DNA of 33,106 nt, from the NCBI GenBank assembly GCA_016926175.1, contig JAFGPA010000034.1, forward strand, positions 1-33,106. Reading direction: 5' to 3'. A program made the position numbers and the translations under genes. The stretch is from Microcaldota archaeon (GTDB lineage Archaea > Micrarchaeota > Micrarchaeia > Anstonellales > Bilamarchaeaceae). Positions 3,177 to 13,579 of this stretch are shown here, piece by piece; position 1 is the stretch's first letter, and every line of letters starts with the position of its first letter. A model generated the notes under the pieces. The model ran no database searches. It was not told the origin of the DNA and worked only from the letters and a program-made list of their open reading frames with translations.

Positions 3177-3674
3177 TCAGCTCTTGATGTAATCAAACAC
3201 TTTATGATCCTTATATATCTTCACATAGTTTTTTATGAATGTAAGAAATATTGCAGGCCTCTCTATAATCAGCTTCGGACCGCGTTTTCTTGCGCCAAAG
3301 CCGAGCCTGAGCAGCATTATTTCATCTTCAGGAGTGAATTTCTTCAGGAAAACTATCCCTTTTTCATCAATCTGCCCTGTTGCATCGAACATGCCTGCAA
3401 GATAACTGGCAGCATATTCATTGAGGTACCTGAAGCGTTCAAGTTGTTCCTTTTCTATCTGCTGAAAAAATTTCCGGTATGCAGAATGGTAAAAATAGAC
3501 CTTATTATCATCCGAAAGCATTCTGTCTGAAGAAGAAAGCTGTTTGTCCAGAATTTCCCTGGTGAAAACAGAAACGACCGGCTCATCGCCCCTAACGCCA
3601 ACGCCCTCAGACGTGCGGTTCTTTCGCCAAAGTCCGATGATGTAGGAAAGTTCCGGAGTAAGTTTTATTTTCAT
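3177..3674 (-). CDS. Stand-alone LAGLIDADG-fold protein, probably nuclease-dead
   Basis: A 165-residue protein with two spaced motifs resembling the helices of LAGLIDADG homing endonucleases: LSYIIGLWRKNR (residues 9-20) and YLAGMFDATGQID (91-103). In active enzymes the eighth position of each motif is the metal-binding Asp/Glu. Here those positions are Asn19 and Thr99, so cleavage activity is unlikely. It is not inserted in another gene and sits 5 bases upstream of thrS and 21 bases downstream of another small gene, in an apparently stable operon. This suggests a domesticated DNA- or RNA-binding protein, as happened in bacterial WhiA. The family assignment rests on motif reading only and the function is unknown. 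Confidence 0.65.
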   Translation of the reverse strand: MKIKLTPELSYIIGLWRKNRTSEGVGVRGDEPVVSVFTREILDKQLSSSDRMLSDDNKVYFYHSAYRKFFQQIEKEQLERFRYLNEYAASYLAGMFDATGQIDEKGIVFLKKFTPEDEIMLLRLGFGARKRGPKLIIERPAIFLTFIKNYVKIYKDHKVFDYIKS

Positions 3675-3695
3675 CGAAACCCCTCAATAAAGAGT

Positions 3696-4154
3696 TTATG
3701 CTTTCAGTTTTTTCTTGTCGTTTTGAAACGATACTGATTTTTTCTTTGGAATGGGGATCTCCACTCTCCTTGTGCCCTCAACGAATTCTTTTATTTCTCC
3801 TGCAAGCAATTCATCCAGCTGTACTGTGAACCAGCGCTGTGCCTTGTCTGAAACATATGCCCGTTTGAATATAAGCGCTATTTCTTCCTGCTCTTTGACT
3901 GTAAATGGATTCTGGTCTTCTTCAATCCTTTTTTCTGCTTTTTTAAGGAGTTCTCCAAATTTCTGAATGTCGCTTTCTGGTGCGCCGCCTGCGCTGAGAG
4001 CACTGAGAATGCCTTTTGCAAGGACTGCGTTTCTTTTGCCGGTGCGCTGAAGGAGATTGTCGAGTTTTTTCAGATCTACAGCTGCAAGGCCCCCTTTTTT
4101 TGCAGCTTCTAACACTCTTCGTGCAAATTGGAAAAACCCTCCAATGAATTTCAT
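3696..4154 (-). CDS. Unknown helical protein, first gene of the thrS operon
   Basis: I do not recognise this 152-residue protein. It is rich in Lys, Glu, Ala and Leu, predicted mostly alpha-helical, and ends in a basic tail (KKKLKA). No signal peptide, membrane span or cysteine motif is visible. It is the first of three tightly packed minus-strand genes ending with thrS. A TATA-like box (minus strand TTTATTAATTTTA, centred near 4180) lies about 26 nt upstream of the ATG, fitting a leaderless start. The divergent purM begins 79 bases away with its own box. Confidence 0.7.
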   Translation of the reverse strand: MKFIGGFFQFARRVLEAAKKGGLAAVDLKKLDNLLQRTGKRNAVLAKGILSALSAGGAPESDIQKFGELLKKAEKRIEEDQNPFTVKEQEEIALIFKRAYVSDKAQRWFTVQLDELLAGEIKEFVEGTRRVEIPIPKKKSVSFQNDKKKLKA

Positions 4155-8646: not shown

Positions 8647-9297
8647 ATGAGAATTTCAAATGAACCAATAGCAAAGCAGGTTTTTGGTTCTGTTTTGAAA
8701 AGAAGGATATTGCATTTCTTATTTCAGGACCAGGAACCGATAAGTGAAAGAGAACTAAGCAGGGTTCTTGGAGTCAGCCATACTGCAGTAAACAAGGCAA
8801 TGAAGCAGTTGCTGGATCTCAACATAGTAAAAGGAAAAACTGTTGGCACTGCAATGGTATGGGAACTGAACAAAAAATCTTTTGCATATCCACATGTCAA
8901 GGCATTTTTGACTGCATCAGAAATCAGTCCATTGGACTGGCTAAAAGAAATGATAAAAAGCAATATTTCATTTTACAACATTCTTACCAAGTTGGCTAGG
9001 GAAAAAGGTCAAATAACAAAAGAGGACCCTGCTATTATAGTCGATGCCTACCTGATAGGCTCAGTAGCAGAAGGAACTGCAAGACCAGATAGTGATGTTG
9101 ATGTTTTACTTATTGTTGAAGAGGGGCAAAACAAGGATATTGTAAGAAATTTGGCTCGCAGTCAAGGTCTAAAACTCCTCGAAAGCTGCGGAAATGAACT
9201 GTCTGTGCATGTATATACCCAAAATGACGTTGATAAGAATAAACCGTCATGGTTGAGAGAATCAATCAAAAAGGGCATAAGGTGCTATAGTGACTAG
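8647..9297 (+). CDS. wHTH-MNT nucleotidyltransferase, antitoxin-like
   Basis: A 216-residue fusion. Residues 1-85 form a winged helix-turn-helix (ISERELSRVLGVSHTAVNKAMK recognition region). Residues ~125-216 form a minimal nucleotidyltransferase with the signature GSVAEGTARPDSDVDVLL, containing the GS and DxD catalytic elements. MNT proteins paired with HEPN genes act as antitoxins, in studied cases by attaching AMP to the HEPN toxin. The gene overlaps the HEPN gene by 8 bases, implying translational coupling. Repeats over its promoter suggest that the HTH part represses the operon. The classification is firm; the antitoxin role is inferred from context. Confidence 0.85.
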   Translation: MRISNEPIAKQVFGSVLKRRILHFLFQDQEPISERELSRVLGVSHTAVNKAMKQLLDLNIVKGKTVGTAMVWELNKKSFAYPHVKAFLTASEISPLDWLKEMIKSNISFYNILTKLAREKGQITKEDPAIIVDAYLIGSVAEGTARPDSDVDVLLIVEEGQNKDIVRNLARSQGLKLLESCGNELSVHVYTQNDVDKNKPSWLRESIKKGIRCYSD

Positions 9298-9706
9298 GGT
9301 AAAACATGTTTCACGGTATAAATATAATGGGTTTGTGGAAAAGGCAGAACAATACTATAATGGAATGAAAAGCGAATTTGAAGGAGAAAGACCGAACAAT
9401 TCAGTAACAATGGCAGTCCATTGTGCAATATCATGGACAGATGCTTTTACAGTTTACAAGCTTGGCAGGAAATCATCGGCCCAGAGCCATGGCGAAGCAG
9501 TAGGTCTTTTGAAAGAAGCAAAATCTTCTGATGAAAAGAAAAAATCCCAGATAATGGATAGCTTACTGGAATTAATTGATATGAAAACGCCTGCAGAGTA
9601 TGAAGATGGGATTCTCGGCAATAAGGATGCAAAAAGAGCGATTAACCTATGTGAAAAAATACGGGCATTTTTCATTAATGAATTTGAAAAAACTAAAGTT
9701 TCTTGA
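9290..9706 (+). CDS. HEPN-domain protein, toxin-like partner
   Basis: A 138-residue, mostly alpha-helical protein starting at a GTG that overlaps the end of the wHTH-MNT gene. The helical stretch around AVHCAISWTDAFTVYKLGRK followed by SSAQSHGEAVGLLKEA resembles HEPN domains. Arg and His in GRKSSAQSH have the R-x6-H spacing allowed for the HEPN ribonuclease motif. The HxY tyrosine that MntA-type enzymes modify in HepT is not present (H-G-E here). Predicted role: RNase toxin restrained by its nucleotidyltransferase partner. The central and C-terminal half resembles the products at 9933-10256 and 10886-11329. Confidence 0.75.
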   Translation: MTRVKHVSRYKYNGFVEKAEQYYNGMKSEFEGERPNNSVTMAVHCAISWTDAFTVYKLGRKSSAQSHGEAVGLLKEAKSSDEKKKSQIMDSLLELIDMKTPAEYEDGILGNKDAKRAINLCEKIRAFFINEFEKTKVS

Positions 9707-9806
9707 TTACATTATCTTTCCCTCTCTTGAATTTTCTGATTTGCAGTTTCTTTGGTTTTGCCAAGGAAATGCCAACTAACCCAAAGTAAAACCAGGCAAA
9801 TAGCAT
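9693..9806 (-). pseudogene. Remnant of a COG2150-type ACT regulator gene
   Basis: The stretch 9726-9773 aligns at the DNA level with the 3' end of the regulator gene at 10340-10389. On the minus strand it encodes GISLAKPKKLQIRKF, matching GTALAKLRNLPIRKI of the intact protein. The stretch 9801-9806 (TAGCAT) with the flanking operator matches the 5' end of the same gene at 10821-10830. The whole middle is missing. A 37-codon frame remains open by chance or reuse, but the 5' part is out of register with the intact gene. I read this as an internally deleted duplicate. Confidence 0.65.
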
Positions 9807-9845
9807 AATGTACAATGTTGTACATAAAAGTATTAAATATGTCAT
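9726..9845. repeat. Segmental duplication, left copy
   Basis: Two blocks (9726-9773 and 9801-9845) match 10340-10389 and 10821-10870 in the same order and orientation. The second block agrees at about 34 of 40 positions from the operator through the TATA region, after a 4-base gap. The right copy contains the complete ACT regulator between the blocks; the left copy has lost it. Confidence 0.65.
9808..9825. promoter_or_regulatory. Palindromic operator, copy A
   Basis: ATGTACAATGTTGTACAT is a palindrome with perfect 8-base arms around a 2-base spacer. It sits just upstream of a TATA-like element (TATTAAATAT, centred near 9837) and has a near-identical counterpart at 10832-10849. It is probably bound by a dimeric regulator; the ACT/HTH protein encoded beside copy B is the first candidate. 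Confidence 0.6.
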
Positions 9846-9932
9846 TGGACAAAAACAATTTTGGTGATTAAATGAAACAAAATCAAGGAAGGGATTTGGT
9901 TTGGCAAGAAGTTAAGGATTTGTAGTGAGGTA

Positions 9933-10256
9933 TTGGCTGAAAAGCACTGTTGTGAAGGACTGTCAGATGAAAGGCACTATTGTGACGATTTCGCAAAATT
10001 AAGGCATTTGCTGGAAAAATCAAACGAAACAACAGAAGAGCAGGCAGGTAAAACAGAGTACAAGTATGCAACAGACAGAGCAGATTTTGCATATAATGAT
10101 GCTTTGGACTTGGCAAAAAAAATGCTTGAAGCCAATAAAGATGATGCGAAAACGCTTTTCAGGTTAAGAGACCTGCTCAGAACAAAAGGCCCGCATGCAA
10201 CTGATCTGATATGTCAGGGGGGTAATACGGAAGGATGCACTGAGAGTATCAAATGA
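9933..10256 (+). CDS. HEPN-like protein, diverged copy A; start uncertain
   Basis: The open frame starts at a TTG and gives 107 residues, mainly helical and Cys-rich at the N-terminus. The part AYNDALDLAKKMLEANKDD with the following LRDLL aligns with SYAEAVGLIKAAMKSGEP...LLL of the 10886 gene and with the HEPN protein at 9290, but the HEPN His is Tyr. The promoter, a GGTGAT Shine-Dalgarno (9863-9868) and an ATG (9872) all lie upstream in another frame, giving only a 17-codon peptide. One indel between 9875 and 9921 would join that ATG to this frame, so the gene may be frameshifted, or the true start may be 9933. Function unknown. Confidence 0.5.
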   Translation: MAEKHCCEGLSDERHYCDDFAKLRHLLEKSNETTEEQAGKTEYKYATDRADFAYNDALDLAKKMLEANKDDAKTLFRLRDLLRTKGPHATDLICQGGNTEGCTESIK

Positions 10257-10283
10257 TGTTGATGGGGTTCTGGTCGAAATGTA

Positions 10284-10313
10284 CAGAAAATTGTTCTGAC
10301 ACCTGTTTTTTTT
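10284..10313 (+). terminator. Probable terminator after HEPN-like copy A
   Basis: A short stem CAGAA/TTCTG with a five-base loop (10284-10298) is followed by a T-run at 10306-10313 and further T-rich sequence. It lies between convergent genes. Archaeal termination depends mainly on the T-tract, and the stem may be incidental. Confidence 0.4.
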
Positions 10314-10332
10314 ATTTTTATTATGCCGGGTT

Positions 10333-10830
10333 TCATTCAATTGAGATTTTTCTGATGGGCAAGTTCCTTAGTTTTGCCAATGCAGTGCCTGGCAGCCTTT
10401 TCTCCAAAACAATTGTCAGTTTTGGATTCGGATAGATATCGGGATCGTCTGAAATTATCTGCCTGATGGAAATTCTGGAATCTGCAATTATTTTTGTAAC
10501 TGAAGCGACAATACCAAAGGCATGGGGCTCTGCCTCTATTTCCAGAACTTCAAAGCCAAGATGATTTGCAACGCCTTTGATTGAAGAGGTTGGCTCAAGA
10601 GCCTCGAATATTTTGAATAATTCTGGAACACTTCGTATAAGATCTGCAGTTTCAATAACAACTCTTCTGTCAACATCAAGAGCACGGGCTATTTTCACTG
10701 GCGAAATCTCAATTTCTCCGCAAAAAATTCTTCCTGTTTTTTCTATTCGTAAGCCACGCCGTAGAAAAAGATCGGCCACTTTTTTGCGCATTGGATAACG
10801 GACAAAGGCACTTTCCAGTATAGCATACAT
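10333..10830 (-). CDS. HTH-ACT regulator, COG2150 type
   Basis: A 165-residue protein matching the archaeal family described as predicted regulators of amino-acid metabolism. The N-terminal ~70 residues are helical with a putative HTH (ISPVKIARALDVDRRVVIET). Residues ~90-165 form an ACT domain (HAFGIVASVTKIIADSRISI, then IRQIISDDP), which usually binds a small ligand. Its ATG faces the ATG of the 10886 gene. The 18-base palindrome 10832-10849 sits immediately upstream, between its start and the shared TATA, consistent with autorepression. An internally deleted relative is present at 9693-9806. Family membership is strong; the ligand and targets are unknown. Confidence 0.82.
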   Translation of the reverse strand: MYAILESAFVRYPMRKKVADLFLRRGLRIEKTGRIFCGEIEISPVKIARALDVDRRVVIETADLIRSVPELFKIFEALEPTSSIKGVANHLGFEVLEIEAEPHAFGIVASVTKIIADSRISIRQIISDDPDIYPNPKLTIVLEKRLPGTALAKLRNLPIRKISIE

Positions 10831-10831
10831 A

Positions 10832-10849
10832 ATGTATAATTTTGTACAT
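10832..10849. promoter_or_regulatory. Palindromic operator, copy B
   Basis: ATGTATAATTTTGTACAT is the same 8-2-8 palindrome as at 9808-9825, with one arm mismatch. It lies between the ACT regulator start (10830) and the TATA-like core, so it would cover the regulator's own transcription start while lying upstream of the TATA for the divergent gene. Confidence 0.55.
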
Positions 10850-10853
10850 AAAA

Positions 10854-10867
10854 GCTATAAATATATC
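10854..10867. promoter_or_regulatory. Shared TATA element of regulator and HEPN-like gene B
   Basis: GCTATAAATATATC, centred at about 10858, lies 28 nt from the ATG at 10830 (minus) and 28 nt from the ATG at 10886 (plus). It can serve both divergent genes. Confidence 0.5.
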
Positions 10868-10885
10868 ATTATAGCAAAAGAGATA

Positions 10886-11329
10886 ATGGTGGAACCAATG
10901 AGGCAGATGCATTCAGGAAAATACGATAACAAGAAAATTCCAAACAAAGAACCTTTGGCAGAGCCAATAATCGAAGCTGCAACGTTTTCAAAGATAATGA
11001 TTCTGCTTGGCACAGCAGGCAGAAGAAGGGATGAAGAGCAGTCAGCAGGAGGGTGGAGCAGCGAAACGAAAACCAGGAAAGTGCCTACAGATGAAGCGTG
11101 CCAAAGCTATGCTGAAGCAGTTGGACTAATAAAAGCTGCCATGAAAAGCGGTGAACCAAAGCTTAAGATTGACATTTACAGGCTTCTTCTGGAAGGAGAC
11201 CCAATGAAGGATGCAGGGGTAATGGATTGCACTGAACTGAAGGACGAACTTGGGAAAATGATTGCAGATGAATATGAAGATGAACTTCAGAAAAACAGCA
11301 AAAGCAAAATAGGATTCGGCAACTTCTGA
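10886..11329 (+). CDS. HEPN-like protein, diverged copy B
   Basis: A 147-residue helical, charged protein. Its C-terminal half (SYAEAVGLIKAAMKSGEP to DEYEDEL) aligns with HGEAVGLLKEAKSSDEK and following residues of the HEPN protein at 9290, but the catalytic His is Tyr and the Arg spacing is altered, so RNase activity is doubtful. It is divergent from the ACT regulator with a common TATA and operator. The ATG at 10886 fits a leaderless transcript; the ATG at 10898, with GGTG upstream, aligns with the ATG at 9872 in copy A and is an alternative. A further upstream in-frame ATG at 10832 lies in the operator and is rejected. Family assignment is tentative and the function unknown. Confidence 0.65.
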   Translation: MVEPMRQMHSGKYDNKKIPNKEPLAEPIIEAATFSKIMILLGTAGRRRDEEQSAGGWSSETKTRKVPTDEACQSYAEAVGLIKAAMKSGEPKLKIDIYRLLLEGDPMKDAGVMDCTELKDELGKMIADEYEDELQKNSKSKIGFGNF

Positions 11330-12430: not shown

Positions 12431-13471
12431 TTATTTTGCTCCATACTTTTTCAGGCAATCGGCAACAGCAGTGCGCCTGGAACCAGATGCAAAAGCAAGT
12501 GCAGTTCTGCCCAGATTGTCCTCTGCATTTATATCTGCGCCTTTTTCAATGAGAAGCTCTGCAACTTCAGCATCTGAAACGCGCATAAGTGCAGTTTTGC
12601 CGCTCTTATCAGCTGAATTGACATCCGCACCATTTGCAATAAGAAGCTTTACAATTTCCTTATGGCCATACTCCGAAGCCCACATCAAAGCAGTCTCGCC
12701 ATAAGTGGTTTTTGCATTTACATTTGCGCCTTTGGCTATCAGAAGTTCGGCAAGGGATTTGTGATTGGATTTAGAAGCGGCACCAAGAGGAGTCGCGCCA
12801 TATTTATTTTCAGCATCGATAACTGCGCCGTTTGCAATCAGAACTTCTGCAACATCGATTTTACCAAGCAATGAAACCAAAAACAGTGGGGTTTCGCCAT
12901 CTTTGTCTTTTTCATTTGCATCGGCTCCCTTTGCAAGCAGAAACCCGATAACATCTGTTTTGCCTTTTTTTGAAGCGTGGGATAAAGGAGTCTCACCGAA
13001 ATCTGACCTGCTTGAAATATCAGCGCCTTTGGCAACAAGGAACTCGGCAATATGGCTGTCTGATGCATGCATCAGCGCGGTACGGCCGTCAATGTCTCTT
13101 GCATCGACCTGTGCACCGCTGGCAATCAGAAGTTGAACAACTGGCAGATGTCCGTTTTTTGAAGCCTGGATAAGAGGGCTTTGCTCTTCATATCCTTTCG
13201 TATTGACATCAGCGCCTTTTGCAACAAGGATCCGGACTTGATTAACGTCTCCTTTTTCTGCCGCATCAATAAGTTCAGCGCCTAAATTCTCACTTTTCTT
13301 GCTATCGTTTTGTGTATGCCTGCCGGATTTTGGATTTTCAGCTGGAGGGACATTGGTTACTGCAACACAACAGCACACAGTAGAGGTCAAAACAAGAGCA
13401 TTGATGAATGTGAATGCTGTTTTTTGCTTTCTGGAACCAGGCCTTTGTTTTTCAGAATTGAAATTCTTCAT
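12431..13471 (-). CDS. Ankyrin-repeat protein with N-terminal export/anchor segment
   Basis: A 346-residue protein. After a basic start (RKQK) there is a ~22-residue hydrophobic segment (TAFTFINALVLTSTVCCCVA) that could be a lipoprotein signal or membrane anchor; the three cysteines do not form a textbook lipobox. A Pro/Ser-rich linker follows, then nine consecutive ankyrin repeats to the C-terminus. Repeats 3 and 8 are about three residues short. Good consensus GADVNxxDxxGxTAL is present throughout. I choose the ATG at 13471 because TATA-like TTTATTAAG lies 26 nt upstream; the in-frame ATG at 13510 is less likely. Probable role: protein-protein binding on the outer face of the membrane. Partner unknown. 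Confidence 0.85.
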   Translation of the reverse strand: MKNFNSEKQRPGSRKQKTAFTFINALVLTSTVCCCVAVTNVPPAENPKSGRHTQNDSKKSENLGAELIDAAEKGDVNQVRILVAKGADVNTKGYEEQSPLIQASKNGHLPVVQLLIASGAQVDARDIDGRTALMHASDSHIAEFLVAKGADISSRSDFGETPLSHASKKGKTDVIGFLLAKGADANEKDKDGETPLFLVSLLGKIDVAEVLIANGAVIDAENKYGATPLGAASKSNHKSLAELLIAKGANVNAKTTYGETALMWASEYGHKEIVKLLIANGADVNSADKSGKTALMRVSDAEVAELLIEKGADINAEDNLGRTALAFASGSRRTAVADCLKKYGAK

Positions 13472-13579
13472 AACAATATGATGATTAGAAAACTTAATAA
13501 ACCACGACATAACACAAAAACAGGAAAGCCTTTCGCAAAAATTAAGAAAGCTTCAGGGGATTACCCAATAGGAGATAAT

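Follow-up and report, generated by a model that had tools for sequence, protein, structure and literature searches.

Two orphan genes in the genome of a Microcaldota archaeon belong to a TrpY/TRP-box unit, and the start of one of them probably adds a translational tryptophan sensor that works by +1 frameshifting at a UGG codon. The unit lies in a 33,106-nucleotide stretch of contig JAFGPA010000034.1 (assembly GCA_016926175.1), hereafter the window, and consists of an intact repressor gene, trpY, the remnant of a second copy and two downstream genes of one family, referred to as the left and the right gene. Judged from sequence, a shortage of charged tRNA-Trp is the most likely trigger and would send ribosomes into the +1 frame of tryptophan-responsive genes.

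Regulator, operator, promoter and downstream gene have been duplicated in tandem, and in the left block the regulator has suffered an internal deletion. Two direct repeats connect the blocks, with their pieces in the order given by the preliminary description. Positions 9804-9855 match 10828-10879 with 81% identity over 52 nucleotides and positions 9729-9773 match 10345-10389 with 78% identity over 45 nucleotides, and 0 of 500 dinucleotide-preserving shuffles reach the score of either match. The same description had the left copy losing nearly the whole regulator and keeping operator, promoter and downstream gene; this is what we find, with the TATA-like box retained. What survives of the left regulator is a 37-codon open reading frame (ORF) on the minus strand (9693..9806) that translates to MLFAWFYFGLVGISLAKPKKLQIRKFKRGKDNVIKKL followed by a stop. 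It keeps the C-terminal motif, and because its middle part matches the TrpY C-terminus (GTALAKLRNLPIRKI), with the 78% match over 45 nucleotides falling at the trpY 3' end, we read it as an internally deleted copy. The two downstream genes show no DNA similarity to each other (166 of 500 shuffles score as well).

The intact regulator gene (10333..10830, minus strand) encodes an N-terminal DNA-binding region and a C-terminal ACT domain. Its product matches the NCBIfam family TrpY_fam (NF053754) over residues 4-157 with E=1.4e-50, the score of 171.5 bits being slightly below the curated cutoff of 180 bits. Pfam matches to ACT are weak; its residues are conserved in an alignment, and the closest orthologues, 65-73% identical, are found in other Micrarchaeota. 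By this sequence evidence the amino-acid-sensing ACT regulator of the preliminary description is TrpY, the archaeal tryptophan repressor, and its operator is a TRP box. The right TRP box (TGTATAATTTTGTACA, 10833..10848) and the left TRP box (TGTACAATGTTGTACA, 9809..9824, part of the 81% operator/promoter repeat) are both perfect palindromes. They are exactly the two perfect TGTAYAN4TRTACA palindromes of the window genome, and the two orphan genes stand behind them; sites with one mismatch are no commoner in this genome than a control pattern. The operator TGTACA-N4-TGTACA overlaps the trpY start and has a TATA-like box on its divergent side, CTATAAATA in the right promoter (10855..10863, plus strand) and TATTAAATA in the left promoter (9831..9839, plus strand). 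In relatives the same site is present beside trpY, and the position of the right TATA-like box relative to the TRP box is conserved. A search of related genomes (G and L label genomes and loci, respectively) recovered the same regulator-operator unit, with trpY facing trpE in seven relatives (G004, G006, G009, G010, G011, G016 and G032), whose TrpY is 65-72% identical to that of the window, and trpB in G098. No trpE, trpC or trpB was found in the window genome, whose assembly is 93% complete.

In Methanothermobacter thermautotrophicus, TrpY binds TRP boxes and represses trpEGCFBAD with tryptophan (PMC6737238). The window resembles this system in that the repressor is divergent from its targets and the operator lies in the common promoter region. 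It differs in that the trp genes are absent, the boxes precede two orphan genes and a putative frameshift leader forms an extra layer. At two other loci (L101 and L104), TrpY and a TRP box are found upstream of an apparent tryptophanyl-tRNA synthetase gene that is divergent from trpY and starts 270 nucleotides away. Three genomes (G062, G072 and G080) each carry two trpY paralogues, one adjoining trpE and the other adjoining variable non-trp genes.

The start region of the left gene, overlooked in the preliminary description, has the layout of a +1 frameshift leader. In the frame of the gene body, no ATG, GTG or TTG occurs between TGA 9873 and TTG 9933, and TTG 9933 is without a well-placed Shine-Dalgarno (SD) sequence. 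Upstream, an SD sequence, GGTGAT (9863..9868, plus strand), leads a 17-codon ORF (ORF1; 9872..9925, plus strand) that begins at ATG 9872, has its stop at 9923 and translates to MKQNQGRDLVWQEVKDL followed by that stop. The gene body (9903..10256, plus strand) continues in the +1 frame from the TGG of ORF1 and is open for 117 codons. At the joint lies the candidate recoding motif AGGGAT-TTG-GTT-TGG-C (9890..9905, plus strand), with a +1 slip predicted at Trp codon 9902-9904. The trans-frame product would be 127 amino acids long if the slip occurs (GTTT translated as V). A homologue in genome G008, encoded at an unrelated locus that has no TRP box, is preceded by a leader (MREKQGQRDSLW) with the same +1 layout. 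The two leaders are identical at 27 of 34 DNA positions from the ATG to TTTGGC, with one in-frame gap of 3 nucleotides, and the similarity ends there.

A search with the string common to the left leader and that of G008 uncovered the trpE start of G019, and all TrpY-linked starts were then read. Including the left gene of the window, 19 cassettes of this kind are present in Micrarchaeota and Diapherotrites before unrelated proteins. They precede trpE (G017, G019, G024, G055, G075, L082, L085, L087 and L094, with L082 and L094 from Diapherotrites), trpB (L070, L072, L081 and L246, the last in G096) and orphan genes (the window left gene, G008, L081 and three in L076). The main frame is without a start codon before the joint in 10 of the 19, and the conserved N-terminus lies upstream of any possible start in the TrpB of L070 and in the TrpE of L082, L087 and L094. 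L070 comes from the complete genome of Candidatus Fermentimicrarchaeum limneticum (CP058998), where trpB (G098:C1:80569) has no start codon before the N-terminus that its product shares with other archaea. The three cassettes of L076 are arranged in tandem in one TrpY locus (minus strand, offsets 4268, 4512 and 5124) and precede a 60-amino-acid orphan, a 182-amino-acid orphan and a 619-amino-acid radical-SAM and Methyltransf_33 protein.

Alignment of 18 cassettes gives the consensus AGGGRT-NNN-CTT-TGG. AGGG is found in 17 of them and the slippery CTTT in 11; the window has GTTT, and TTTT or CGTT occurs in others. Third positions of the main frame at motif positions 0, 3 and 12 are invariant, which is partly imposed by the search pattern, and position 15 varies. 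In the trpE of G075 and the trpB of L081 the main-frame residue is V instead of F, and the TGG is retained. The L246 trpB, divergent from trpY, was retrieved via trpB homology; a motif search would have missed it because the AGGG element is absent. It has the SD sequence GAGGTG, an ORF1 reading MKPGELLW, the joint CTT-TGG-C and no start codon in the main frame.

We scanned 2.18 Mb of TrpY and trp loci together with the window for AGG(G/A)(A/G)N-NNN-N(T/G)T-TGG with an in-frame, SD-led ATG or GTG. This gave 15 distinct sites; in 14 the +1 frame is open for 100 codons or more and ORF1 is short, and none has a long +2 frame. When 13 control codons replaced TGG, 17 sites were obtained and a long +1 frame was seen in one. 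With the SD filter off, 17 motif sites had long +1 frames and two had long +2 frames. Dropping the AGG requirement left NTT-TGG without a +1 excess (34 versus 31); specificity thus depends on the SD-like AGGG. When 301 genomes were searched for the pattern, 14 matches came back, seven at cassette leaders and seven in unrelated genes. A broader criterion, any short SD-led ORF that overlaps a main frame lacking a start, produces many false positives, and we therefore take only the motif-based scan as evidence.

These features suggest a mechanism in which transcription and translation would both respond to tryptophan. As in characterised TrpY systems, TrpY with tryptophan would repress both divergent promoters, and scarcity of tryptophan would allow both orphan genes to be transcribed. 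Ribosomes would initiate at ATG 9872 of the SD-led ORF1. On reaching the UGG they would have a slippery NUU codon in the P site, with the SD-like AGGGAU lying six nucleotides before that UGG. If charged tRNA-Trp is available, UGG would be read and translation would terminate at 9923. With charged tRNA-Trp scarce, the P-site tRNA would slip +1 onto UUU, GGC would enter the A site and the gene body would be made. TrpY and the frameshift leader would then provide tryptophan control at two levels; in the window, the repressor and both boxes would have survived the loss of the trp genes, with the translational sensor retained by one orphan gene. More generally, we consider it likely on balance that the cassettes represent a widespread archaeal form of end-product sensing, a prfB-like cassette with UGG in place of a stop and a +1 frameshift at a hungry Trp codon, common to trpE, trpB and TrpY-regulated orphans, moving between non-homologous genes and kept in an archaeon without trp genes.

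The proposed sensor has features in common with several known systems. Bacterial trp operons under leader-peptide attenuation gauge charged tRNA-Trp through a short SD-led ORF that contains a Trp codon. The cassette likewise sets such an ORF ahead of trp genes, but it contains a single Trp codon, overlaps the gene body in another frame and would give a frame change as its output instead of RNA folding and termination. The bacterial prfB gene (release factor 2) uses a programmed +1 frameshift at AGGGGG-NNN-CTTTGA-C (PMC12421855). Position for position, the cassette shares with it the SD-like AGGG hexamer, the 3 nucleotides, in 11 of the 18 aligned cassettes the slippery CTTT, and a slow A-site codon beginning with TG, and in both the remainder of the protein is encoded in the +1 frame, close to the start of the gene. 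In the window, AGGGAT-TTG-GTT places the SD-like AGGGxx three nucleotides before the slippery codon as in prfB, an element absent in L246. The cassette would work like prfB, yet it is not a prfB frameshift because the Trp sense codon TGG replaces the in-frame stop TGA. Its genes are trpE, trpB and TRP-box orphans in archaea, not bacteria, and its signal would be charged tRNA-Trp where that of prfB is release factor 2. In hungry-codon frameshifting, studied by Gallant, a P-site CUU slips +1 when the A-site aminoacyl-tRNA is scarce (reviewed in PMC5009743). The cassette resembles this and the Ty1 site CUU-AGG-C in the +1 slip of a P-site CUU and in the scarce A-site aminoacyl-tRNA. The hungry-codon cases are laboratory starvation effects and Ty1 depends on a rare tRNA in a retroelement, whereas the cassette is conserved and found on biosynthetic genes for the same amino acid.

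Several observations weigh against a tryptophan-sensing frameshift. The Thermococcus kodakarensis TrpY homologue does not regulate trp, and TrpY homologues are consequently not all trp regulators (PMC6737238); because that homologue behaves differently, we infer TrpY function in the window from homology only. Control by tryptophanyl-tRNA is read from the codon alone. The window's P-site codon is GTT instead of CTT, so re-pairing on UUU would be weaker, and the C-terminus of the left protein is shortened. Among the other cassettes, the trpE of L085 has an SD-led in-frame ATG, the trpB of L072 has an in-frame ATG, and G017, G019, G055, G075, the L081 orphan ORF and L076 unit 2 have possible weaker starts in the main frame. 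Most readable members of a set of 30 homology-fetched trpB loci have ordinary starts, as do the trpE genes of the window's own genus, and the cassette is a minority arrangement. Most of the sequences are metagenome-assembled genomes. Because TTTGG served as the seed of the motif search, the motif's invariance is in part built in; evidence independent of the seed comes from the scan with control codons, the absence of start codons, L246 and the F-to-V changes that retain TGG.

Without any change of frame, ORF1 could be an ordinary Trp-containing leader peptide (an upstream ORF) and the body could start separately, either at a non-canonical codon at motif positions 4-6 (AUU, GUG or AUG) or by reinitiation, with a Trp stall exposing or coupling the start. 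This would fit the predominance of RTN at positions 4-6 (ATT in 9, ATG in 3 and GTG in 2 of 18 cassettes) and the real in-frame ATGs of L072 and L085. We regard it as unlikely, however. AAGGG directly abuts the codon at positions 4-6 and therefore leaves no SD spacing for a start there, and ATT prevails though a single substitution would give ATG. These positions read AGT in L246 and are separated from the joint by an in-frame TAG in L076 unit 3, and conservation extends through TTTGG, with TGG kept where F is V. A decaying pseudogene, in which the duplication was followed by loss of the regulator and by a frameshift near the 5' end of the left gene, would explain the reduction of the regulator to a remnant, the short left C-terminus and the single frame of the right copy. 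Such decay is very unlikely given the identical +1 layout and closely matching ORF1 at the unrelated G008 locus, the 17 further cassettes in other genes, the good SD sequence of ORF1 and a body that is open throughout its 117 codons.

The right orphan gene (10898..11329, plus strand) encodes 143 amino acids with four predicted helices in a single frame and has no recoding leader. Its SD sequence, GGTG (10888..10891, plus strand), is spaced as in the trpE leaders, and 10898 rather than 10886 is most likely the start. The family comprises the right and left products and one protein each from G022 and G008 (3 of 301 genomes), and no member turned up in the remaining 298 genomes of the class. The G022 gene is also divergent from trpY, in a genome that is also without trpE and trpC. 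Small first genes in G012 and G037 are not members. In L040 (G012:C19), a 130-amino-acid orphan gene (3535-3927, minus strand) stands between TRP box and trpE as the first gene of the trp operon; its sequence is unrelated to the family. AlphaFold models of two members, the right product (pLDDT 66) and the G008 protein in its unshifted form (pLDDT 73), show four helices at moderate confidence, and Foldseek found no PDB match to them with E below 0.001. The simplest guess is that the orphan protein takes part in a tryptophan-starvation response.

The preliminary description derived both products from a HEPN toxin on the basis of a shared [HY]xEAVxLxK match to the HEPN protein encoded at 9290. 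That match stands for the right product as a local one (phmmer, 16.9 bits, 0 of 1000 shuffles as good) and fails for the left product (204 of 1000 as good). A 21-member HEPN profile scores the two products at 4.4 and 3.0 bits (right product 4.4 bits, with 18 of 2784 shuffles as good) and gives no significant score to either the left product or the G008 homologue; because the profile does not recognise the family, we do not file it as HEPN. Neither orphan product has a Pfam match, profile-profile comparison gives an hhalign probability of 20%, and the two structural models yield no convincing HEPN match. HEPN ancestry is unsupported by Pfam, NCBIfam, phmmer with shuffles, hhalign, and AlphaFold with Foldseek, apart from one local match of the right product to a single HEPN protein. 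That the orphans are catalytically dead HEPN paralogues under an ACT regulator, perhaps modulating the adjacent MNT-HEPN pair, is most improbable: beyond the right-product match, a HEPN gene is present in all three genomes with the family, but the profile signal is weak or nil, no HEPN fold is matched and the G022 and G008 members are not adjacent to HEPN genes.

The neighbouring MNT-HEPN pair is a module separate from the orphan genes. It consists of a helix-turn-helix and MNT nucleotidyltransferase protein with GSX10DXD (8647..9297, plus strand; Pfam NTP_transf_2, 3e-9) and the HEPN protein (9290..9706, plus strand; Pfam PF05168, 3.8e-6; profile match to PDB 2hsb). With its conserved His and Tyr, the pair looks like a Class II HEPN/MNT pair (PMC7641770). 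It is syntenic next to DRG in G011 and G001, relatives without the orphan family, in which these contigs also carry trpY and trpE, farther along. An ankyrin-repeat gene (12431-13510) interrupts the DRG neighbourhood known from G011.

Known control of amino-acid genes relies on repressors, attenuators, T-boxes and TRAP; regulation by a frame change at the codon for the amino acid being sensed would, if true, add a further means. We found no description of amino-acid sensing by such a frame change in the literature. A review from 2021 (PMC8211752) names just one frameshift reported in a cellular gene of archaea, and that one goes in the -1 direction. Natural use of hungry-codon frameshifting under starvation is a question left open in the recoding literature (PMC5009743), and the cassette, if it acts as proposed, would bear directly on it. 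The trpE and trpB genes of these archaea would then be mis-annotated, with missing N-termini or apparent frameshifts. The reduced window genome would be a case of a Trp repressor persisting after loss of the trp genes.

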